A stretch of DNA of 35,707 nt from NCBI RefSeq assembly GCF_030268965.1, contig NZ_BSSE01000044.1, positions 1 through 35,707 of the forward strand. The letters run 5' to 3'. The number at the start of each line of letters is the position of its first letter. Position 1 is the stretch's first letter. The notes below the pieces were generated by a model. The model had not been told where the DNA came from. It ran no database searches and saw nothing but the letters and a program-made list of their open reading frames with translations. The translations under genes and the position numbers were made by a program. The stretch comes from Microtetraspora sp. NBRC 16547 (lineage in GTDB: Bacteria > Actinomycetota > Actinomycetes > Streptosporangiales > Streptosporangiaceae). This document shows positions 229-35,707 of the stretch, piece by piece.

Positions 229-1083
229 TCATCCGGCGAACGCCGTCGACGGCATGCCCACGGCGCCCAACCGGTCGATGGCGAACACTGATCCGGCGGG
301 ATCGTCGTCGGAGAGATCGAGCCCTTCACGGGCCGACGTGATGTACAGGACGTCGAGGCGGGAGCCGCCGAACGTGCAGGAGGACGGCTGGTGCACGGGC
401 AGCGGGACCTCACTGAGCAGGTCTCCGTCCGGAGAGATGCGTGCCAGGCGGTCGCCGCCCCATATCGCGACCCATAGGCACCCGGCCGCGTCGACGGTGA
501 GCCCGTCCGGCAGGCCTGCGTGAGCGGGGATCCGGAACAACGTGCGTCGGCGACTGATCGTGGTGGACCCGGGATCGGTGTCGAAGGCCGAAATCTCGCC
601 GGCGATGCTGTCGGCGAGATAGAAGGTGTGTCCATCGGGACTCCAGCCAAGCCCGTTGGGCAGGGCCAGTCCCTCAAGGACGACGCGGCTCGTCCAGTCC
701 GGCATGAGGACATGCAGAGCGCCTTTGCCGGGTTGGAAATCCATCGTGGTACTGCCGGCCCAGAGTCGACCATGCCTGTCGCACTTCGCATCGTTCATGC
801 GCTCGCCGTCGGGCAGGATCGCGCGCCGGATGTTCATCGATCCGTCTGCTTCGACGGTCGCGAACCCTTCGGCCGTCGCGGCGACGAAGCCTCCGCTGCG
901 CCGTGGTGCCACGGCGCCGACGTGTGTCGGCAGTTCGATGCTGGTGGTCTGACCGGTGGCCGGGTCGCTGGTATGGATGTGTCCGGCGGGGATGTCGACC
1001 CAGTGCAGGCGACTGTTCTCGGCGTCCCACACCGGTCCTTCGCCGACGCGGGCCCTACTGGGCACCACAATCTCAGCCGTCAT
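229..1083 (-). CDS. SMP-30/gluconolactonase/LRE family sugar lactonase
   Basis: Predicted cytoplasmic six-bladed propeller lactonase of 284 residues that opens an aldonolactone to the sugar acid, with a divalent metal. The metal ligands expected for the family are visible: Glu15 (GEGPVWD), Asn143 (LPNGLGWSPDG) and Asp193 (LPDGLTVD); Arg95 and Asn97 in GERMND fit the substrate-binding pair. The reading frame extends 79 codons upstream into the neighbouring gene, but the family N-terminus (TAEIVVPSRARVGEGPVW) begins at the ATG at 1083, so that start is chosen. It lies 118 nt downstream of an SDR gene on the same strand, which would supply the lactone. The exact sugar cannot be read from sequence. 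Confidence 0.9.
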   Translation of the reverse strand: MTAEIVVPSRARVGEGPVWDAENSRLHWVDIPAGHIHTSDPATGQTTSIELPTHVGAVAPRRSGGFVAATAEGFATVEADGSMNIRRAILPDGERMNDAKCDRHGRLWAGSTTMDFQPGKGALHVLMPDWTSRVVLEGLALPNGLGWSPDGHTFYLADSIAGEISAFDTDPGSTTISRRRTLFRIPAHAGLPDGLTVDAAGCLWVAIWGGDRLARISPDGDLLSEVPLPVHQPSSCTFGGSRLDVLYITSAREGLDLSDDDPAGSVFAIDRLGAVGMPSTAFAG

Positions 1084-1201
1084 CTGGGGTCCTCGGTCAT
1101 CCCCGGCTGCCCGAGCTGTCCAGGGGTGACCCAGCGGCTCTTCGAGACGAACGGAAGGCAGTCTGGCCGACCGGGATCGCGGTCGTAGCGGACGTTCTCT
1201 C

Positions 1202-1984
1202 TCATTCGGGAAGCACCACCGCGGCGTTGGCCAGCAGCCCGCCGTCAACGGGGAGCGCGATGCCGGTGATGAAGCTGGCGCGGTCACTGGACAGGAAGGC
1301 GATCGCTTCGGCAACCTCATCCGGTCGCGCCACTCGTCCCAGCGGGTGCATCCGTCCCCAGGACTCGACCACCGCTTGTGCGGCTTGGTCGCTGCCGTCG
1401 GAGAAGGTGCGGGCCGAGAACCGCAGCATCGGGGTGTCCACCGACGCGGGACATACGGTGTTGACCCTGATCCCGTTCTTCGCCTCGTCGATCGCGATCG
1501 ATCGTGCGAGCGCGTTGAGCGCCCCTTTGCTGGTGGTGTAAGCGGCGACGGCGCTTTGGGTGACGAAGGCTTGAACGGAGGAGACGATCACGACCGATCC
1601 CGTTCCGCGAGCGCGCAGGTGGGGCAAGGCGTGCTTGACAGTGTGGAAGACGCCGGTCACGTTGACGGCGAGCACCTCGTTCCACTCATCGGCGCTGGTG
1701 TTCGCCGCCGTGCCGTAGCGTTGGATTCCGGCGGCGGCGACGACGATGTCGAGCCCGCCGTATGCGGCGGCGACGTGTGCGACGAGTTGCGCGGTGGCGG
1801 TCTCGTCGGTGACGTCCACATCGAGGTGTTCGACACCTGGGAGCGGAGCTTCGGAGTCACGTGTCGGTGGGACACCCGCTGCCACGACCGTCGCGCCGCG
1901 CGCCGAAAGCACCTGGGCTGTCGCACGTCCGATACCGCTGAGTCCACCGGTGACGATGGCGACCTTGCCGTCAAACTCCGCCAC
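1202..1984 (-). CDS. SDR family NAD(P)-dependent oxidoreductase (probable sugar dehydrogenase)
   Basis: A classical short-chain dehydrogenase of 260 residues, the usual length. It shows the Rossmann cofactor motif TGGLSGIG near residues 12-19, VAAAGI at the position normally NNAG, the catalytic Ser in VIVSSVQ and the YTTSK active-site motif, and ends with the usual ITG.A.PVDGG segment. The GTG at 1984 is chosen because an AGGGGAG Shine-Dalgarno lies just upstream and VAEFDGKVAIVTGG is a typical SDR start; the longer frame to 2056 adds a low-complexity arginine-rich leader. With the lactonase downstream, oxidation of an aldose to its lactone is the likely role (inference). The palindrome at 2127-2136 may control it. 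Confidence 0.9.
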   Translation of the reverse strand: MAEFDGKVAIVTGGLSGIGRATAQVLSARGATVVAAGVPPTRDSEAPLPGVEHLDVDVTDETATAQLVAHVAAAYGGLDIVVAAAGIQRYGTAANTSADEWNEVLAVNVTGVFHTVKHALPHLRARGTGSVVIVSSVQAFVTQSAVAAYTTSKGALNALARSIAIDEAKNGIRVNTVCPASVDTPMLRFSARTFSDGSDQAAQAVVESWGRMHPLGRVARPDEVAEAIAFLSSDRASFITGIALPVDGGLLANAAVVLPE

Positions 1985-2126
1985 GATCCACTCCCCTCGA
2001 TGTCGTCCACGGGCTCCCCGCCGTGAACGGCGCTGGGGGTCAGCCGCGGTGGGCATTCTCGTCCAACCGTCGCCGCGACTGTCGTGCCAGTACGGGCTGT
2101 GAGCCGGTTGTGCGGGATCACTCTAA

Positions 2127-2136
2127 ACAACGTTGT
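2127..2136. promoter_or_regulatory. Candidate LacI-family operator in the SDR / beta-galactosidase divergent region
   Basis: The perfect 10-bp palindrome ACAACGTTGT with a central CG, as LacI/GalR-family operators have, lies in the 371-nt gene-free stretch 1985-2355 between divergent genes. The LacI gene at 4559-5599 is the obvious candidate reader. A related half-site (ACAACG) occurs at about 4536-4541, just before lacI, hinting at autoregulation. Nothing else is recognised in this intergenic stretch. The assignment is inference from symmetry and context. Confidence 0.45.
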
Positions 2137-2355
2137 CTCAAGCCGCTAGTCTGATCTGCCGCGACCTGGCGCTGCTCCGGGCGGCGATCCTCAGGTCGTG
2201 TCCGACGGTCTCCCGACGTCGTGTCGGGGTGCCGGCCTGCGGTCGGTGGAGCCGGGGTGGTCGTCCAGTGGCGGGCTTACCGGGTCTCGGTTCGCCGGCC
2301 GGCAGGGCGGTCTTCGCGTGGGTGTTCGTTCGTTGGGCAGTGAGGAGAAGAGTTC

Positions 2356-4389
2356 GTGACGGCAGAGTGGATCCGGTGGCCCGCCAACGTCGTGGCCCGG
2401 TTCGGCGGCGAACCCGTGGCGTTCGGAGGCGACTACAACCCCGAGCAGTGGGACGAGAGCGTGTGGCACGAGGACGTGCGACTGATGCGCGAGGCCGGTG
2501 TCAACCTCGTCACGGTCGGTGTCTTCGCCTGGTCGATGCTGCAGCCGGCGCCCGATCGATGGAACTTCGGATGGCTCGATCGCGTGCTCGACCTGCTGCA
2601 CGCGAACGACATCGCTGTCGATCTCGCCACGGCCACCGCATCGCCTCCGCCGTGGCTCACCACACGGTTTCCGGAGGTGCTGCCCGTCGATCGAGACGGG
2701 CGGATGATGTCGCAGGGTGGACGCCAGGCATGGTCGCCGTCGTCGCAGGTCTATCGCGAGCACTCGCTCGCGCTGGTGGAGAGGATTGCGGAGCGCTACG
2801 GCGAGCACCCGGCTCTCGCGCTGTGGCACATCTCCAACGAGCTCGGCGGCCACAATTCGCGGTGCTACGACGACGCGAGCGCCGTGGCCTTCCGGGGCTG
2901 GCTGAAGGAGCGGTACCGGGACTCGCTCGACGAACTGAACGCCGCGTGGACGACCGCCGCGTGGAGCCAGGCCTACTCGGCGTGGGAGCAGATCCAGCCT
3001 CCGCGGGTGACGTTCACCGACTCGAACCCCACCCAGGTGCTGGACTTCGATCGGTTCAGCTCCGACCAGCTGCGCGAGCAGCTGCGAGCGGAGATCGCCG
3101 TGCTACGGCGTGTCAGCCCGGACGTGCCGATCACCACGAACCTGGTGCTCTTCGACGCCGGAAAGAACATGGACTACAGCTCGTGGACCGGCGACCTGGA
3201 CCTCGTCTCGAGCGACCACTACCTGAGGCCGGCGCCCGACGCTCACGTCGAGCTGTCGTTCTCGGCCGACCGGGCACGCGGCTTGTCGAAGGGGAAGCCG
3301 TGGCTGCTCATGGAGACGGCCACCGGTGCCACGAGCTGGCGCCCGGTCAACCCAGCGAAGCGCCCGGGGCAACTCCGGCGGGACGTGTTCTCCCACGTCG
3401 CCCGCGGATCCGACGGGATCTGCTTCTTCCAGTGGCGGGCCGCCAACGCGGGCGCCGAGCGGTTTCATTCCGCGATGCTCCCGCACGCCGGTGCCGACAG
3501 CCGGAAGTTCCGGGAGGTGACGGCGCTCGGCGCGGAGCTCGCCTCCTGTGCCGAAGTGCTCGGAACCCGGGTGGTCGCGGACTGCGCGTTGCTGTTCTCC
3601 GAGGAGTCGTGGTGGGCGGCCGAGCGGGAGTCACATCCGCACAACGGCCTCTCGTACATGGAGTCCGCCCTCGATTGGTACCGGAGTCTCTGGGACGCGG
3701 GCATCACCGTCGACGTCGTGCCGCCGTCGGCCGACCTGTCGGGCTACCGACTGATCGTCGTGCCCATGCTCTACCTGGTCTCCGACCACGACGCGGCCGC
3801 CGTCGCCGCCGCCGCGGACGCGGGGGCGACCGTGATCGTCACCTACTTCTCCGGCATCGTCGATCCGCTCGACCGGGTGCGGCTCGGCGGTTACCCCGGG
3901 GCGTTCCGCGAGCTGCTGGGGGTGCGCGTGGAGGAGTTCGCGCCCATGGTGGAGGCGGACTCCGTGGAGATCGACGGGGTCACGGGGCCCGCACGGGTCT
4001 CGACCTGGCACGAGGAGATCGATCTGACGGATGCGGTGGCCGAGGCCCGGTACGTCAGCGGCGACTTCGCGGGCGCGCCGGCAATCACGCGCGCGCCCCG
4101 AGGCGCTGGGGAAGCCTGGTACGTGGGCGTCGAGCTGGCCGCCGACGCACGCGCGCGTCTGGTGGCGGCGATCACGAAGCGGGTCGCGGCAACGGCAGCA
4201 CCTTCCGACGGCGGCCTCGAGGTCGTGACGCGCCGCTCGGCCGATCACGACTACGTCTTCCTCATCAACCACCGCGACACCGAGACGACCGTTCCGGGGT
4301 CGGGAGCCGACCTGCTGGACGGGTCCGTTCACGAGAGAGAGATCACGGTGCCCGCGGGCGGGGTGAGGGTCGTCAGACGGGCCGGTTGA
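2356..4389 (+). CDS. Beta-galactosidase, glycoside hydrolase family 42
   Basis: A retaining glycosidase of 677 residues, the usual GH42 length. The N-terminal TIM barrel starts with VAFGGDYNPEQW. The acid/base is Glu162 (HISNELGGHN) and the nucleophile is Glu320 (WLLMETATGATSW), both in the expected contexts. The trimerisation domain follows from about residue 400 and a short C-terminal beta domain closes the protein. There is no signal peptide, so it works inside the cell on imported oligosaccharides. The GTG start follows GAGGAGAAG with proper spacing. The family cleaves beta-D-galactosides and sometimes alpha-L-arabinopyranosides. The lacI gene follows in the same direction, and the nearby ABC importer probably brings in the substrate (inference). 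Confidence 0.95.
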   Translation: MTAEWIRWPANVVARFGGEPVAFGGDYNPEQWDESVWHEDVRLMREAGVNLVTVGVFAWSMLQPAPDRWNFGWLDRVLDLLHANDIAVDLATATASPPPWLTTRFPEVLPVDRDGRMMSQGGRQAWSPSSQVYREHSLALVERIAERYGEHPALALWHISNELGGHNSRCYDDASAVAFRGWLKERYRDSLDELNAAWTTAAWSQAYSAWEQIQPPRVTFTDSNPTQVLDFDRFSSDQLREQLRAEIAVLRRVSPDVPITTNLVLFDAGKNMDYSSWTGDLDLVSSDHYLRPAPDAHVELSFSADRARGLSKGKPWLLMETATGATSWRPVNPAKRPGQLRRDVFSHVARGSDGICFFQWRAANAGAERFHSAMLPHAGADSRKFREVTALGAELASCAEVLGTRVVADCALLFSEESWWAAERESHPHNGLSYMESALDWYRSLWDAGITVDVVPPSADLSGYRLIVVPMLYLVSDHDAAAVAAAADAGATVIVTYFSGIVDPLDRVRLGGYPGAFRELLGVRVEEFAPMVEADSVEIDGVTGPARVSTWHEEIDLTDAVAEARYVSGDFAGAPAITRAPRGAGEAWYVGVELAADARARLVAAITKRVAATAAPSDGGLEVVTRRSADHDYVFLINHRDTETTVPGSGADLLDGSVHEREITVPAGGVRVVRRAG

Positions 4390-5609: not shown

Positions 5610-6686
5610 TCAGGTGGTCAGGGCGGTCGTTGCCGGCAGACCACGCGTGCCGTCCGGCTCGTCGAGCGCCAGGCCGTTCAGGACGCCTTGCAGGTATCCG
5701 ATCGCGTGTGCCCGGCCACGGCTGCAGTATGCCTCGGACGATGTGTCGCCCCAGGTGTCCAGGTCTCCGATCATCGCTGGGACGTGGTCGTCGATGATGA
5801 ATCCGTCGAATCCGGAGTCGTTGAGCCGGCGGATCACTCGTGCCGGGTTGAAGTTGCCCTCGCCGAGGAAGCATTCGCTGAAGCGTGGCACGGTCCCGCG
5901 TACGTCCCGAAAATGGACGTAGAAGATGGACGGTCCCATGAGGTCGATGACCTCGTTGATGCTCTGCTCGCCGGCCATCTCCGACACCGTTCCGAGGCAG
6001 AGGTTCAGCCCCCATGAAGGACTGCCGCCGGCTTGCCTGCGTGCTTGTCCGATGGCGACCGGGGAGATGAAGATTCGGGCTGCGCCGCCCAGGGGCTCAT
6101 CGATGGGTGGATCGTCGGGGTGCAGGGCGAGCCGCACACCGACTTCCTCGGCGACGGGGAGAACGGCGTCGAGGAAGTACTGGTGGTTGGCCCACATCTG
6201 GTCGGCCGTGATCGGCTCGTCCATGGGCTGCTCCGGGGTCAGCCGGTACCCGGCGAGCGCGTTGCCGCGGTGCACGTCGGCCAGGTCGAAGGCGCTGACC
6301 TTGGCGCCGCCGCGTCCCTTCGCGGCCATGTCGGTGCGCCAGACGTAGGTGGCGAGGAAGTTGTAGCCGAGCAGGTCGATTCCGACGGCGGCGAGGTTGC
6401 GGATCGTCTTCTGGTAGTTCTCGATCTGCTCATCCCGCCCGGGCAGGCCGCGTTGGATCTTCCAGAAGTGGGCGAGCGGGACGTTCTCGAGGCCGTCGAT
6501 CGCCAGCCCGTCAGCGTCGCAGCGTTCCCGGAGCGCGCGCAACTCGGCCAGGCTCCAGAAGCCGTCGACTCCGGGCAGCACGTCGGGTGTGTGCAGCTGC
6601 ACGCCGGTGAGTCCGAGCTGGTGGGCGAACGTCGCGACGTGGGAGTCGTACTTGTCGATGTGGCCGAGGGAGAGACGGATGCTCAT
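5610..6686 (-). CDS. UxuA-like mannonate dehydratase family protein
   Basis: A TIM-barrel sugar-acid dehydratase of 358 residues related to UxuA (D-mannonate to 2-keto-3-deoxygluconate); E. coli UxuA is somewhat longer. Visible family segments are GVQLHTPDV near the N-terminus, the metal-binding LALHPDDPP, LCLGTVSEM, FYVHFRDVRG and the C-terminal GFDGFIIDDHVP. It is the last gene of the operon: its ATG overlaps the stop of the upstream FAH-family gene (ATGA), so the two are translationally coupled. Because its partners are a dehydrogenase and a diketo-acid hydrolase, its real substrate may be another aldonate than mannonate (inference). The family call is firm; the substrate is open. Confidence 0.88.
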   Translation of the reverse strand: MSIRLSLGHIDKYDSHVATFAHQLGLTGVQLHTPDVLPGVDGFWSLAELRALRERCDADGLAIDGLENVPLAHFWKIQRGLPGRDEQIENYQKTIRNLAAVGIDLLGYNFLATYVWRTDMAAKGRGGAKVSAFDLADVHRGNALAGYRLTPEQPMDEPITADQMWANHQYFLDAVLPVAEEVGVRLALHPDDPPIDEPLGGAARIFISPVAIGQARRQAGGSPSWGLNLCLGTVSEMAGEQSINEVIDLMGPSIFYVHFRDVRGTVPRFSECFLGEGNFNPARVIRRLNDSGFDGFIIDDHVPAMIGDLDTWGDTSSEAYCSRGRAHAIGYLQGVLNGLALDEPDGTRGLPATTALTT

Positions 6687-30022: not shown

Positions 30023-30457
30023 TCAGTCGAGCGCGTACACGCGGTGGACGAACTCGGCGAGCTTGGTGTCGGACAGTTCCTTGGCGAGGTCGGCTTCGCT
30101 GATCATGCCGAGGAGGCGGTGCCTTTCGATCACAGGCAACCGCTTGATGTGATGCTCCTCCATCGTGAACAGGGCCTCTTCGACGCTGGCGTCGGCGTCC
30201 ACCCACACCAGGCCACGAGCCAGCTCACCGGCGGTGGTCTGGTCGATGTCCTTGCCCTCGGCGCAGCACGTGACCACGATGTCGCGGTCAGTAATGATCC
30301 CCTTGAGCCGGTCGTCGTCCCCGCAGATCGGCAGCGCGCCCACTCCCAGGTCACGCATCATCTGTGAGGCGGTACGCAGGCTGTCGTGCTCGCCGATGCA
30401 CTGAACCCCCTCGTGCATCACGTCGCGGGCCTTCTTCCCGGTTTCCTGTGTGCTCAT
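30023..30457 (-). CDS. CBS-domain pair protein
   Basis: 144 residues made of two CBS domains in tandem: RDVMHEGVQCIGEHDSL..ALPICGDDDRLKGIITDRDIV in the first (about 10-65) and VDADASVEEALFTMEEHHIKRLPVIERHRLLGMISEADLA in the second (about 82-128), each seen in short runs. Such stand-alone pairs bind adenine nucleotides and often act as energy or dormancy-related sensors in actinobacteria. ATG 30457 follows a G-rich GGGGG Shine-Dalgarno. No effector domain is attached. It is monocistronic, convergent with the PEBP gene. Confidence 0.93.
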   Translation of the reverse strand: MSTQETGKKARDVMHEGVQCIGEHDSLRTASQMMRDLGVGALPICGDDDRLKGIITDRDIVVTCCAEGKDIDQTTAGELARGLVWVDADASVEEALFTMEEHHIKRLPVIERHRLLGMISEADLAKELSDTKLAEFVHRVYALD

Positions 30458-31154
30458 CGTGAACCCCCGAAAGCGTCGATGCGCTCATTTCGTCCAGGTT
30501 CCTCTACCCCGACAGGACGGCAGAAGCGCGGCGCGGCACCGGAGCTTTCGCTGTTCCATGTGCAGGAGATACGGCAGATACGTACTACCTCGTGACTCCT
30601 CCGATCCCTGAAGGAAGCGGCTTCTCGCTGATATTCCAGCTGCACTTATCGATCTTTGAGTTGTCGTCGCCGGCAGTGGCGTCGTCGGCGTCGGCGTCGG
30701 CGTCGGCGTTGGCGTTGGCGTTGGCGTCGGCGTTGGCGTTGGCAAGATCATGGCCAGCGTCATGTACCGGTACCAGTGCTGGATAAAGCCGGACCTGACA
30801 AGGGGTTGGTAGTCGCGGTCGGGGTCGTGCATCAGCTCTGGACGGATCTCCAGGACTCCACAGTCGCTTCGGCGATGATTTCGATGCGGCGTCCGTATGC
30901 CATATGCCCATCGGACACAAAGCTGCCGTCCCTGAACGGCAACCCGCAGAACGTGGCGCGGAAGTGCCCGGGGGGTTCCGCCCGGCGGGAGCGGCTCGTA
31001 CGCCGCCAATGGCGCCATGTCGTAGCCCGACCGTGCCCCGTGCTTGTTCCGCGCCACCTGATGAGCTGTCACGCGAAGCGCGCCCAGCCTTTCCGCCGCC
31101 GCGCCCAGCCCTTCCGATCCCACCCACGGGTCGACGCCCGACCCGCGTAGGGCG
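30458..31154. other. 697-nt stretch without a convincing gene, possible decayed minus-strand gene
   Basis: No frame is coding-like throughout. On the minus strand, one frame near 30840-30940 reads FVSDGHMAYGRRIEIIAEA and stops; the next, near 30750-30850, reads MHDPDRDYQPLVRSGFIQHW; a third after the hexamer repeat ends with KIDKCSWNISEKPLPSG at the 30585 stop. Third positions are GC-rich in each piece but in different frames, which would fit a frame-shifted, decaying gene of unknown family. The long open frames here exist largely because the repeat at 30684-30743 has no stops. Confidence 0.3.
30684..30743. repeat. Ten tandem hexamers GTYGGC
   Basis: Ten uninterrupted copies of GTCGGC or GTTGGC (four GTCGGC, three GTTGGC, one GTCGGC, two GTTGGC). 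In the minus strand it would encode Pro-Thr, Ala-Asn/Asp or Gln-Arg dipeptides depending on frame. The hexamer length keeps the frame when copy number changes, so the repeat could sit in a coding linker, but the surrounding frames are broken. Confidence 0.85.
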
Positions 31155-32273
31155 TCACCTGCCGTTGGCGTTGGCCTGTACGACGATCAGTGCGATTAGG
31201 GCGACGATCGCCAGAGCCGCGAGGACGGCGGCGAGGATCCTGGCGACGCTGTACGGCCGCTGCCCGATGACCTCACCGGTGCTGGCGTTCACCATCACCT
31301 GCCAGGTCTTGCCGCCGTGCAGGTAGCTGAGGAACCAGACCGGCAGCAGCACCAGTTTGTAGGTGAGGCCGAAGTACCGTGTGGTGACCGAGCGCACCCG
31401 CTGCTCGTCACCGCCGATGTCGTGGCGGCAGTCGGACTCGATGACCGTAGCCATGCGTTCCTTGGCGAGTTCGAGGCCGTCCTCCGGCTCGATGTCGTAG
31501 CGCACGGTCTGGAAGCCCGCCAGGTACCTCCCCTGGTACGGAACCGCCTGGTCCAGGAGCCACGGGGCGAGTTTGTCCAGCCGCTCGGAGGCGACCCGGC
31601 TCGTTCCGGGGACGAGCACGTCGTCGAAGGCGCGTGACACCGTGCCGGAGGCGTGCGACCAGCGGGTCCGCATCACCTGACGGGTCTCCGTGCGGGTCGA
31701 GCCGTTCTCCGTGACGGTGTAGGTCTCGGTCTCCCAGTAGTGGTCGCCCCGCTGGCCGGTGTAGTCGGAGACCGTACGGGCGTCGTACGTCCAGTACGGC
31801 AGGTAGCTCCCTTTGAACGTCTCCGCCTCTGTCACCTTCTTGAGGCTGGAGGGGGCGAACCAGCGGGAGGACGTCCACGTGCGCAGCGCGGCGCGGGCGC
31901 CGTCCCGGTCGATGCCGAAAGGGAGAATCGCCTCGGGCACGATCCGCTCGGTGGACGCGTCGGTCACCAGTGGTGTGCCGCAGAACTGGCACCGTTCGGA
32001 CAGCGTGTCGCTCTCCGTGCGCGCCCGGCAACCTGGGCAGACGAACGCATGCGCCGCACCGGCGACTGCCCTCGGCTTGCGCGGCATCTGGGCCAGCTCG
32101 GCGTAGTCGTGCTCCCGCACTCCCCGCCCTGCCGGCGCGATCGGCTGTTCCTGCTTGCAGTACGGGCAGCGCATGGAGCTGGTGCCCGGGGCGTACTCCA
32201 GACTGGCGCCGCAGGACTGGCAGGGGTAGGAGCGGGACGCGATCTCCGCGCCGGCGCCGTTCGGGTCGGACAC
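31155..32273 (-). CDS. Membrane-anchored TFIIB-type zinc-ribbon protein (YdjG-like)
   Basis: 372 residues. Two zinc ribbons open the protein: CQSC/CPYC at about residues 18-39 and CPGC/CQFC at about 79-98. A central beta-rich domain follows (YLPYWTYDARTVSDYTGQRG, then GRYLAGFQTVRYDIEPEDG), and the C-terminus holds a membrane segment (ILAAVLAALAIVALIALIVV) just before the end, preceded by another hydrophobic stretch. Annotators often call relatives PriA-like helicase, but there is no helicase motif. In Bacillus the relative YdjG works with the SPFH protein YdjI and PspA at the membrane. Here the SPFH gene lies 45 nt upstream on the same strand, so a membrane-stress complex is likely (inference). 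Confidence 0.88.
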   Translation of the reverse strand: MSDPNGAGAEIASRSYPCQSCGASLEYAPGTSSMRCPYCKQEQPIAPAGRGVREHDYAELAQMPRKPRAVAGAAHAFVCPGCRARTESDTLSERCQFCGTPLVTDASTERIVPEAILPFGIDRDGARAALRTWTSSRWFAPSSLKKVTEAETFKGSYLPYWTYDARTVSDYTGQRGDHYWETETYTVTENGSTRTETRQVMRTRWSHASGTVSRAFDDVLVPGTSRVASERLDKLAPWLLDQAVPYQGRYLAGFQTVRYDIEPEDGLELAKERMATVIESDCRHDIGGDEQRVRSVTTRYFGLTYKLVLLPVWFLSYLHGGKTWQVMVNASTGEVIGQRPYSVARILAAVLAALAIVALIALIVVQANANGR

Positions 32274-32318
32274 GACCGGTCCTCCGGAGGGACGGATAGG
32301 GGGAAGGGGACGCGGCGC

Positions 32319-33434
32319 TCAGACCTGCGGCGGCAGGGGCGGCGGAACGCTGGACATCAGCGGGGACAGCTCGGGCACCTGGTCGGCCGGGAGCCAGGCG
32401 GGCATGCCCACACGCCAGACCAGGCTGGCGCGGGTCAGCTCACCAGTACCCACGAGCCCGGGCAGCGCGGCCGGGTCGTAGGGCCCCTGCTGCCGGCCAC
32501 CGACGGCCACGTACCACTGCTCCTGCGGGGGAAGCGGCGGCGGGCCGCCCGCCGCGCCGGGCGGAGGGGCCGGGACCGCCTGCGGGGCCAGCCCGGCGGC
32601 GAGGCGCTGCCCGACGGCCATCCCCATGCCCAGGCCGATGCCCTCGCCCGCGCCACCGGGGTTGCGGGCGGCGTCACCGATCGCGTTCGCGGTCTGGAAC
32701 CGGGTGTACTGGTCGAGGTCGCCCACGATCCCCATCCGGGCGCGCGTGTCGATCGCCGCCTCGACCTCCGGGGGCAGGGAGATGTTCTCGATGATGAACG
32801 TGGGCACCGCCACGCCGACAGGGGCCAGCTCCTCGCTGAGGATGCCCGCCAAACGCGCGCCCAGCGCGTCCTGGTGTCCCGCCAGGTCGAGAACGGGGAC
32901 GTTCGCGGTGGCCAGCGCGTTCGCCAGCCGTCCCACGATCAGCTGCCGCAGGTACTCCTGTACCTCCTCGGTGCGGAACTGCGGGTCCGTTCCCGCCAGC
33001 TCGCGCAGGAGGGCGGCGGCGTCCGTGATCCGGGTCGCGAACGCGCCGAACGCCCGCAACCGCACCATGCCGAACTCCGCGTCGCGGACGATGACGGGAT
33101 TCTGCGTGCCCCACTTCAGGTCGGTGAACAGGCGGGTGTTCACGAAGTAGACCTCGGCCTTGAACGGCGAGTGGAAGCCGTACTTCCACCCCTTCAGCGT
33201 CGCCAGCAGCGGCAGGTTCTGCGTCTCCAGGACGTAGGTGCCGGGGGTGAACACGTCGGCGATGCGGCCTTCGTTGACGAAGACGGCCGTCTGGGACTCC
33301 CGGACCACCAGCCGGGCACCCATCTTGATCTCGTTCTCGTAGCGCGGGAAGCGCCAGACGATGGTGTCTCTGCTGTCGTCCGTCCACTCGACGATGTCGA
33401 TGAACTCACCGCGGATGCGGTCCATCAAGCCCAC
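32319..33434 (-). CDS. SPFH-domain protein with C-terminal GYF_2 domain (YdjI-like)
   Basis: 371 residues. The N-terminus LMDRIRGEFIDIVEWTDDS is the hallmark of the virion-core-like SPFH group; the SPFH domain runs to about residue 215 (VFVNEGRIADVFTPGTYVL, FGMVRLRAFGAFATRI). A Gly/Pro/Ala-rich linker (about 240-305) leads to a GYF_2 domain (EQWYVAVGGRQQGPYD...LVWRVGMPAWLPA) and a PPPLPPQ tail. GTG 33434 has GGGGAAAC upstream; ATG 33425 is the alternative, and the frame to 33518 is not supported. SPFH proteins form membrane-bound rings. It is first in a two-gene operon with the zinc-ribbon protein; no pspA gene is present. Confidence 0.92.
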   Translation of the reverse strand: MGLMDRIRGEFIDIVEWTDDSRDTIVWRFPRYENEIKMGARLVVRESQTAVFVNEGRIADVFTPGTYVLETQNLPLLATLKGWKYGFHSPFKAEVYFVNTRLFTDLKWGTQNPVIVRDAEFGMVRLRAFGAFATRITDAAALLRELAGTDPQFRTEEVQEYLRQLIVGRLANALATANVPVLDLAGHQDALGARLAGILSEELAPVGVAVPTFIIENISLPPEVEAAIDTRARMGIVGDLDQYTRFQTANAIGDAARNPGGAGEGIGLGMGMAVGQRLAAGLAPQAVPAPPPGAAGGPPPLPPQEQWYVAVGGRQQGPYDPAALPGLVGTGELTRASLVWRVGMPAWLPADQVPELSPLMSSVPPPLPPQV

Positions 33435-33705
33435 GTTTCCCCGCCGTCCCCACTCCCCGTACGTCAGTGCCGAACGGCCCGTGCGCGGCACCGCCGATGA
33501 CGATAACAAGCCCGGCAATCAACGACCAGACCCAGATCTACTGGAACAATGCCGCCTATCTGGAGCTTCACGCCGTCCGTACGGCAGGCCACCCGACGTG
33601 CCGAAGATCTCGCACCTCGAGTTACCGCGAAACGAGCAGGCGCGTTCACGGCTCGCAGAGAGGCCGTCACGGACGGCGCGTGTGCTCAGGCGATTGGCCT
33701 CGTGA

Positions 33706-34814
33706 ATTCGCGAGCTGACCTCAGTGGCGGGCACGATGCACAAGGTGGCCCGGGCCGAGCCGGTGATCGGAACGGTCGCCTCCACGGTGACAGCGTGGCG
33801 GGCCTTCGACAAGCTCGACGACACAGCCCTGGCCAAGGTCGCCCAGGCTCGGGCGGCGCACCGCCGTCTGATCTGGCAGCACCTGGCCACCCGACCGCAG
33901 GGCTTCCCGCAGGTGCAGGTGGCCGGGCAGGTCTGGGACGGGTGGCTGGTCATCGACGTCGACGCGACGCTGGTGGCGTGCCACTCCGGCAAGCAAGGCG
34001 CGGCACCGACCTACAAAAAGCACATCTTCGGTCTGCACCCGATCGTGGTCACCGTCGCGAACACCGGCGAGATCTTGACCATCTACCTGCGGAAAGGTAA
34101 CTCTGGATCCAACACCGCCGCCGACCACATCACGGTATTGCGTGCGGCTGTCGCCCAGATCCCGGCCCGCTACCGCAAGAACATCATCTTCCGCTGCGAC
34201 GGCGCCGGAGCCACCAAGGACCTGCTGAACTGGATCACCTCCGAAGCCGCCGAACGCGGCTGCGACTGGCGCTACAGCGTGGGCTTCGATGTCACCCAAC
34301 CCTGGCCGGCGGCCGGCCACCCGGCATGCGGGTGAACGCCCGGACCGAACCGCTCCACCCCAAACACCGCAAGAAGGCCAGCGAGGTGAAGAAGAAATGC
34401 GGGCAACGCTTCCAGGCCGTCGCCCACGACCTGCCCGGACGCCACTACCCGCGACTGGATGCTTTCCACCGCAACCACGCCGGGGTCCAAGACGCGATCA
34501 AGGACAGCAAGAGCCTCGGGCTGCGCGCCTTCCCCTTCTATGCCTCCGCCGCCAACCAAGCCTGGTGCCTGGCCGTCATACTTGCCGCCGACCTGCTGAC
34601 CTGGCTGCGGCTGCTGGCCCTCGACCACCATTCTGAGCTGCGCAAAGCCAGCCCGGCCCGGCTCCGCCACGCCCTGCTGACCGTCCCCGCCCGCCTGGTA
34701 CGGCGCGCCCGCCAACGCCTCATCCGACTCCCCGACGACCACCCCCATCACGGCGACCTGATCATCGCCTGGAACACGATCCGCATGCTCGGGCTCGCCA
34801 TCGCACCTCCCTGA
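33706..34814 (+). pseudogene. IS1380-family transposase, 5'-truncated and internally deleted
   Basis: Two frames make up one broken transposase. The first (33706-about 34300) holds the core with the catalytic Asp in LVIDVDATLV, the family's SNTAADHITVL and the second Asp in IIFRCDGAG. The second (about 34300-34814) begins LAGGRPPGMRVNARTEPLHP and runs through ANQAWCLAVILAADLLTWLR to the end. A deletion of some 35-45 residues joins them out of frame near 34290-34302, and about 90 N-terminal residues are missing, with a stop at 33703. The element cannot move on its own. Its right end may lie near 34930-34955 (GCGAAAGATCCGGGCTGG); no matching left end is visible, and I found nothing in 33435-33705. 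Confidence 0.85.
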
Positions 34815-35077: not shown

Positions 35078-35569
35078 CTATCCAAAATGACGCAGGGTAA
35101 CGATAATCAGCGATGATACATCGCCGACGGTTGCGGCGATCTTCGAGGCCGCACGCTCTTCAGGATAGATGTTGTCACCGTTTCCCCATTCTTGAATGAA
35201 TGCGGAAAGAAATTGCACATCGGCCACCGTCTGATATTTATCAGACCTCAGGTGCCACCTACCCGACGTCGCACTCTCTAGCTCCCAACCGGACTCGCGC
35301 ATCCGGGATATCTGCTCACGAACGGCCGCTTCCGCACCGCCGCGGCCGCGATCTATCACGACATATTCATACTCAAAGAGTGGATTGCTGGCATTGGAAA
35401 GCTCTTGTACGGCAACAGCAATTCTGCCACCACGAGCCAGATTCTCTCGAATATCGTCACTAACCATCACTGGAGCACGGTGATTGACGAACCAGACTCC
35501 GGCAGCCAGCACGCCAGCGACCAGAACGACAGGGACCAACAGGAAGTAGTACCTCGACGCCCGCTTCAC
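35078..35569 (-). CDS. Small membrane-anchored protein of unknown function, lower GC
   Basis: 163 residues. A short basic head (KRASRYY) precedes one membrane segment (FLLVPVVLVAGVLAAGVWFV, residues 9-28); the rest is a hydrophilic outer domain with FEYEYVVIDRGRGG and MRESGWELESATSGRWHL, and no family I can name. Base composition is clearly less GC-rich than the other genes of the window, suggesting transfer together with the mobile debris around it. GTG 35569 lies only 16 nt after the 3' end of a group II intron, so either the intron cut it off from its promoter or the true N-terminus lies in an exon beyond the intron and outside the window. Confidence 0.65.
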   Translation of the reverse strand: MKRASRYYFLLVPVVLVAGVLAAGVWFVNHRAPVMVSDDIRENLARGGRIAVAVQELSNASNPLFEYEYVVIDRGRGGAEAAVREQISRMRESGWELESATSGRWHLRSDKYQTVADVQFLSAFIQEWGNGDNIYPEERAASKIAATVGDVSSLIIVTLRHFG

Positions 35570-35585
35570 GCCTGATCCATTTCTT

Positions 35586-35659
35586 GTCGGGTGGCCCCGA
35601 GGGATTTCACCTCGGGGCTCCCACAGATCCCGGCGTGAACCTCTCGGTTCACCGGGCTC
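35586..35659 (-). ncRNA. Group II intron domains V and VI
   Basis: Domain V is the 34-nt segment 35626-35659 on the minus strand: it begins GAGCCCGGTG with the AGC catalytic triad at positions 2-4, has a GAGA tetraloop closed by AACC/GGTT, a two-base CG bulge after TTCA, and closes with CCGGGATC. One pair (position 3 with 32) is G-A instead of the usual G-U. Domain VI (35586-35625) is a 9-bp stem GCCCCGAGG/CCTCGGGGC with an adjoining GGG/CCC clamp that leaves an unpaired A seven bases from the 3' end, the expected branch point. Length, loop, triad and branch position all agree. Confidence 0.82.
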
Positions 35660-35707
35660 CTGTCACTCTGGTCACCAGGCGTGCGGGACCGAAGGTGTCC
35701 ATGGCCA
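35586..35707 (-). mobile_element. Group II intron, 3' end only (cut by window edge)
   Basis: The minus strand from the edge reads into domains V and VI of a group II intron (35586-35659) and ends with ...CCGAC at 35586, the usual terminal AY dinucleotide. The 48 nt at 35660-35707 would be the link between the intron-encoded reverse transcriptase and domain V; short frames there end before domain V, as expected for the tail of such a gene, but too little is visible to identify it. The rest of the intron lies beyond the window. The 3' exon begins at 35585 and leads directly into the membrane-protein gene. Confidence 0.75.

Follow-up and report, generated by a model that had tools for sequence, protein, structure and literature searches.

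The 3′ end of a group II intron at a contig edge of Microtetraspora sp. NBRC 16547, very probably belonging to a mobile RmInt1-like element

Introduction

Group II introns are recognized by a domain V of about 34 nt with an AGC or CGC triad, a GNRA loop and a two-base bulge, and by a domain VI whose bulged A lies 7-8 nt before the 3′ splice site, the intron itself ending in AY. A GUGYG 5′ end, domains I-IV, EBS1-IBS1 pairing and an intron-encoded reverse transcriptase (RT)/maturase are further hallmarks, as are self-splicing and retrohoming activity. The closest described systems for the locus reported here are RmInt1 of Sinorhizobium meliloti and the class D introns, for which the cited part of PMC4238363 mentions a GGUGAAA and a short C run; RTs without an endonuclease domain occur also in classes A, C, and E, according to the cited part of PMC3552965. 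Introns of actinobacteria (Streptomyces, Micromonospora, Amycolatopsis, Mycobacterium, and others) are either annotated as ltrA or unannotated. Our literature search for Microtetraspora and group II introns returned no paper on this intron, and that for actinobacterial group II retrohoming found no paper.

Here, we report that the window, i.e., the whole stretch of DNA analyzed, which is an entire contig (C44) of 35,707 bases, ends inside a group II intron on the minus strand. The original prediction, which had taken the window edge for the 3′ end of a group II intron, is supported by a covariance-model match to RF00029, by the fold, and by covariation in both helices.

Results

The intron terminus

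The intron 3′ end occupies the last 122 bases of the window on the minus strand, with a G+C content of 67%. In cmscan, RF00029 (Intron_gpII) is the sole family reaching its gathering score in the window: the complete model (1-77) is matched at 35661..35586 (-) with 47 bits (gathering score, 40; E 2.3e-6 with the whole window as search space), and the covariance-model check that had been proposed for domain V is positive. The minus-strand fold of this end has a free energy of -45.2 kcal/mol (z -4.8), and none of 200 shuffles was equally stable. The segment 35661-35586 (-) is confirmed as domains V and VI of a group II intron, and the features of the region, in transcript order, are as follows.

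35672..35707, minus strand: 3′ end of the RT/maturase gene, last 11 codons (WPWTPSVPHAW) and stop (translation, identity to M. glauca)
35626..35659, minus strand: intron domain V, 34 nt (RF00029, fold, covariation)
35658-35656, minus strand: AGC triad of domain V (RF00029, fold)
35645-35642, minus strand: GAGA tetraloop of domain V (RF00029, fold)
35636-35635, minus strand: two-base bulge AC of domain V (fold)
35589..35622, minus strand: intron domain VI (RF00029, fold, covariation)
35592, minus strand: unpaired A of domain VI, presumed branch point, seventh base from the intron 3′ end (fold)
35586, minus strand: last intron base (3′ splice site), ...CACCCGAC (seven 3′ junctions compared)
35577..35585, minus strand: start of the 3′ exon, AAGAAATGG, 8 of 9 bases shared with the copy on contig C22 (junction comparison)
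35078..35569, minus strand: downstream ORF, 163 aa, in sense orientation with the intron (ORF list)

Length, triad, GNRA loop and two-base bulge of a domain V are all present in 35659-35626, and the 34-nt domain with its AGC triad and GNRA loop had been described correctly from the letters. The bulge had been read as CG; AC reads better, and this reading leaves a U-G wobble that is kept in all 21 distinct rows of the alignment described below. The 3′ splice site was set by comparing 3′ junctions on C44 and C22 of the same genome with four of Microtetraspora glauca and one of Sinosporangium album, and the intron terminates as ...GAC at 35586, i.e., with an AY ending and with the bulged A at 35592 as the seventh base from the end.

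Complete relatives and the rest of the intron

The statement that no RT gene lies in the window holds for a complete gene, but the last 11 codons and the stop are there, at 35707-35672 (-), and the rest of the window copy's RT falls beyond the contig end at 35707. It had been suggested to look for an LtrA-type RT on the minus strand before domain V: besides the tail in the window, a complete RT of 435 aa is encoded in M. glauca, and its C-terminus is identical to WPWTPSVPHAW. The complete M. glauca intron (contig BBYL01000059.1, 7154 bases) is 1931 nt long, starts with GUGUG, matches RF01999 for domains I-IV with 89 bits, and its last 122 nt are identical to the window at 122 of 122 positions. 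Its RT/maturase (L037:87-1394, minus strand) reaches 400 bits with TIGR04416, for which the cut-off is 300; Pfam finds RVT_1 and GIIM plus a below-cut-off RdRP_1 match, and GIIM ends at residue 411 of 435, with no endonuclease domain among the Pfam matches.

Another complete intron, again of 1931 nt, is carried by S. album (NZ_FNCN01000010.1), which belongs to another genus of the same family. It is identical to that of M. glauca at 1843 of 1931 positions (95%) without gaps and to the visible part of the window copy at 121 of 122, and the two RTs share 94% identity. The intron of the window copy is about 1.93 kb long in these close relatives, and its own genome has two 3′ ends of it. Within the genus, the intron is present in two (the window's own and M. 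glauca) of four genomes searched, and an RT relative at E 1e-100 is found in 5 of 60 genomes; the own-genome RT relative is a different intron on contig C8, with 65% identity and one TGA stop. As a yardstick, the ORF at 30023-30457 of the window (CBS-domain-like by eye) is 92% identical to its M. glauca counterpart and 76% to the S. album match, which might be paralogous. Between genera, the intron is thus more similar than this ORF, which suggests, on the thin yardstick of one gene, a recent transfer of the intron. Please note that a stretch nearby, at about 30587-30631 (query 565-609 of 30023-33518), has many further occurrences with 88-95% identity in three of four genomes searched (G001, M. 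glauca (G002) and S. album (G007)); it is perhaps a low-complexity repeat visible in the ORF list.

The same intron 3′ end is also found at the start of contig C22 of the window's genome, where C44 and C22 have exactly 127 bases in common before their flanks differ, and a 5′ junction with 112 intron bases, beginning with GUGUG, lies at the end of contig C58. Since the same 3′ end stands at another contig end with exactly 127 bases shared, we infer that the assembly broke at a repeat, i.e., that a short-read assembly collapsed the repeated intron and cut the window copy off; the 127 shared bases would be the expected leftover of an assembler using 127-base words. When this genome was searched for the start of the intron, three mismatches being allowed, C58 was an exact match and C8 and C9 had two mismatches each. 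The two 3′ junctions (C44 and C22) stand against a single 5′ junction, that on C58. A near-identical intron interior was not found on any contig of this genome among the 40 of 62 candidates scored, the best interior match among them being the related intron on C8 (69%).

This negative result would also be expected if the window copy were a dead, truncated 3′ fragment of a group II intron, having neither body nor RT, and intron ends without an RT do occur in this genome, where 10 RF00029 matches stand against 4 GIIM matches. We consider such a fragment quite improbable, however, because the last 122 nt equal those of the complete M. glauca intron throughout, RT codons included, and because C44 and C22 stop after exactly 127 shared bases and C58 after 112 intron bases, as is expected from a collapsed full-length repeat. 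Several intron lineages coexist in this genome, some of them probably as remnants.

Two assignments of the 5′ junction on C58 can be compared. Beside this junction, C58 (L057) has a 187-aa ORF (363-926) with weak similarity to the 163-aa protein of the window (E 3e-5, a single comparison), and this small-protein similarity is the one observation that weakly points to C58 and C44 as the two sides of one copy; the 163-aa protein and a 286-aa ORF of M. glauca gave no match (E 0.5). The 5′ flank of C58 resembles the sequence before an unoccupied site on contig C45 which continues into a C22-like leader, so that C58 may belong to the C22 copy rather than to the C44 copy. The same contig has a 3028-aa ORF (C58 896-9982) with RHS/YD-like repeats by eye. 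Neither the 163-aa nor the 187-aa protein has a Pfam match, and the two may belong to a single variable, immunity-like family.

Target pairing and insertion sites

Eighteen introns, namely those of M. glauca, S. album and 16 of 80 loci, were aligned with their 5′ flanks; they begin with GUGYG in 14 cases and with UUGYG in 4. EBS1 is a variable loop upstream of the RT, where domain I is expected, and it pairs with the last six exon bases (IBS1). All six pairs form in 16 of the 18 homologs, several of which are closely related, so that the 18 are not independent events. Among swapped partners the proportion is 24 of 306, and a count of 16 was not attained in any of 5000 permutations; EBS2-IBS2 pairing is weaker (14 of 18 versus 94 of 306 swapped). 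In this lineage, EBS1 AUCAGG pairs with IBS1 CCUGGU, the latter being common to C58, three 5′ junctions of M. glauca and the 5′ junction of S. album; the window copy's own 5′ exon lies outside the window, and the pairing is read in its homologs. A GCCAGG stretch, picked by eye as EBS1, was rejected, as the same six bases are present in 12 of 18 homologs though their IBS1 differ.

With their flanks, seven 3′ junctions were compared: two from the window's genome, four from M. glauca and one from S. album; a fifth M. glauca junction, on C59, is truncated by the end of its contig. Three of the seven run into an open transposase frame (PF13359, DDE_Tnp_4), and another three retain a portion of a similar leader before diverging, i.e., are leader remnants. 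The exception is the window junction, which has only AAGAANTGG in common with the C22-type junctions and shows no evident similarity farther on. Its first five 3′-exon bases, AAGAA, are the same in the C22 copy, which fits a target footprint; the S. album junction and two of M. glauca differ within these five bases. From these sequences, the intron is usually at home in the leader that immediately precedes DDE_Tnp_4-type transposase genes. Since the window site shares only AAGAANTGG with that home, the window copy is probably an ectopic insertion or a rearranged copy. In M. glauca, one intron 5′ junction lies some 270 bases from what looks like a CRISPR array, a long series of repeats of about 28 bases with a 61-base period (GGAGCATCCCCGCGGGCGCGGGGGCGAC) on contig C48 (L058, about 696-3469).

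The unoccupied related site on C45 reads GTAGTGAAGCGCCTGGT, one base off the GAAGCCCCTGGT of the occupied sites, and is followed directly by GGAAGTGG and a C22-like leader, without an intron. The first 3′-exon base is G here and A at all seven occupied junctions. This site is made up of two separate blastn matches that meet, one with 75% identity (E 4.2e-6) and the other with 82% (E 4.8e-11). A pattern for the empty site, searched with up to two mismatches in 60 genomes including the window's own, matched 49 of them (121 matches); its reversed control matched more (198 matches in 53 of 60), so that the search is uninformative and was not used. The 3′ flank of the window copy, 35078-35585, had no long match in 40 other genomes with up to 15 candidates per genome scored, and only matches of 27 and 30 bases were found, in two of the 40.

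The ORF that follows the intron begins at 35569, leaving the 16 nt that had been predicted, and its unusual composition is borne out by a G+C content of 55% versus 69% for the window. It has no Pfam family (E up to 0.1) and no NCBIfam family (E up to 0.001), and by eye its product looks like a small membrane-anchored protein. Farther along, at 33724-34814 (+), the window has a DDE_Tnp_1_4-type transposase in two overlapping frames of 203 and 162 aa; this is probably an insertion sequence with a frameshift, and it lies some 800 bases from the intron. The short distance and the sense orientation of the 163-aa ORF could be explained by a domesticated intron end that serves this gene as a leader or as a splicing control, rather than by a selfish element. 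Three of the seven 3′ junctions, however, lead into transposase genes and three into transposon-leader remnants; with six of seven junctions linked to transposons, the 163-aa neighbor of the window junction looks incidental, and we regard domestication as very unlikely.

Conservation of the two helices

The 76-nt stretch of the window was aligned with 21 others, i.e., C6 and C35 of the same genome, the S. album copy and 18 from other records, and 21 distinct rows were used for the pair statistics. Left out were L088 (the same S. album place as L090), the second L093 match (6118-6193), and the RF00029 matches C1, C2, C8, C9, C61, C22 and C35:20496 of the window's genome. Standard pairs are formed in 97.1% of cells (26 pairs, 21 distinct rows), and 15 of the 26 pairs are changed on both sides among relatives: 8 of 14 in domain V, where 95.6% of cells are paired, and 7 of 12 in domain VI, where 98.8% are. 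The alignment was compared with 500 shuffles, none of which equalled it in cells paired, in the number of pairs or of cells with two-sided changes, or in covariation score; in the number of further pair types, 83 of the 500 shuffles equalled it. Shifting the partners by 1 to 3 columns leaves no more than 50.3% of cells paired. In the lower stem of domain V, the third pair takes a standard form in only 10 of 21 rows. A chance pair of hairpins or a terminator before the 163-aa gene, as the G+C-rich last 122 bases and their position 16 nt before the ORF could suggest, is refuted by the covariance-model match, the covariation in both helices, the RT tail and the near-identical complete introns elsewhere, and we give it practically no chance.

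Discussion

The feature at the window edge is almost certainly the 3′ end, comprising the RT tail, domains V and VI and the 3′ splice site, of a mobile, ORF-bearing group II intron that resembles RmInt1. As judged from its family, the intron RNA would fold and bind its own RT/maturase, and would splice out as a lariat via the bulged A at 35592. The lariat would then reverse-splice into DNA, the target being selected through EBS1-IBS1, EBS2-IBS2 and a single 3′-exon base (EBS3), and the RT would copy the inserted intron into DNA; as there is no endonuclease domain, priming is probably at replication forks, as in RmInt1.

It is an ordinary mobile element, and what is new is one more member of a known intron kind and its choice of home. 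The intron repeat explains why the contig ends here, and it illustrates how repeated introns hide at contig ends, with most of the RT dropping out of the window. The copies and the related unoccupied site give insertion boundaries for target-choice studies of endonuclease-less actinomycete introns. A more speculative reading, which we would hold as unlikely, is that of a class-D-like lineage recently transferred between actinomycete genera and specialized on DDE_Tnp_4 leaders, in which the ectopic or rearranged copy at a variable-gene locus marks a possible point of cassette recombination. If this were true, an intron outside the transposase frame would not need to splice for the transposon to move, and the small variable genes concerned would be the 163-aa gene of the window and the 187-aa gene of C58, together with the RHS-like 3028-aa ORF.

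Among known systems, the M. glauca RT is 51% identical over 406 columns to a 419-aa ltrA product of S. meliloti, which we take to be the RmInt1 RT or a close relative, the record saying only ltrA; the best solved RT structures score at most 157 bits by phmmer, a different program whose scores are not directly comparable. By this similarity and by the absent endonuclease domain, the intron resembles class D / IIB3, to which it is tentatively assigned. As in RmInt1, the RT-maturase, seen in M. glauca, is without an endonuclease domain; both introns are at home in mobile DNA, RmInt1 residing in an insertion sequence (cited part of PMC5894124), and domain VI of the window has the GGUGAAA and the short C run near the 3′ splice site that are mentioned for RmInt1 and class D in the cited part of PMC4238363. 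In contrast to RmInt1, the window intron lives in an actinomycete, and its home is a DDE_Tnp_4-type transposon, whereas that of RmInt1 is IS630 (cited part of PMC5894124); three of the junctions precede the transposase domain and are in leader-like sequence rather than in a transposase-coding region. The catalytic motif also differs, being YVDD in the M. glauca RT and YADD in the S. meliloti ltrA. The actinobacterial introns in the flank alignment resemble this one in RT sequence (best-segment identity 63-94%), in their matches for domains I-IV and V-VI and in the position of the EBS1 loop, but they mostly have their own EBS1/IBS1 and target. The introns of M. glauca (BBYL01000059.1) and S. 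album (NZ_FNCN01000010.1) have the same IBS1 as the window's lineage, whereas their flanks differ.
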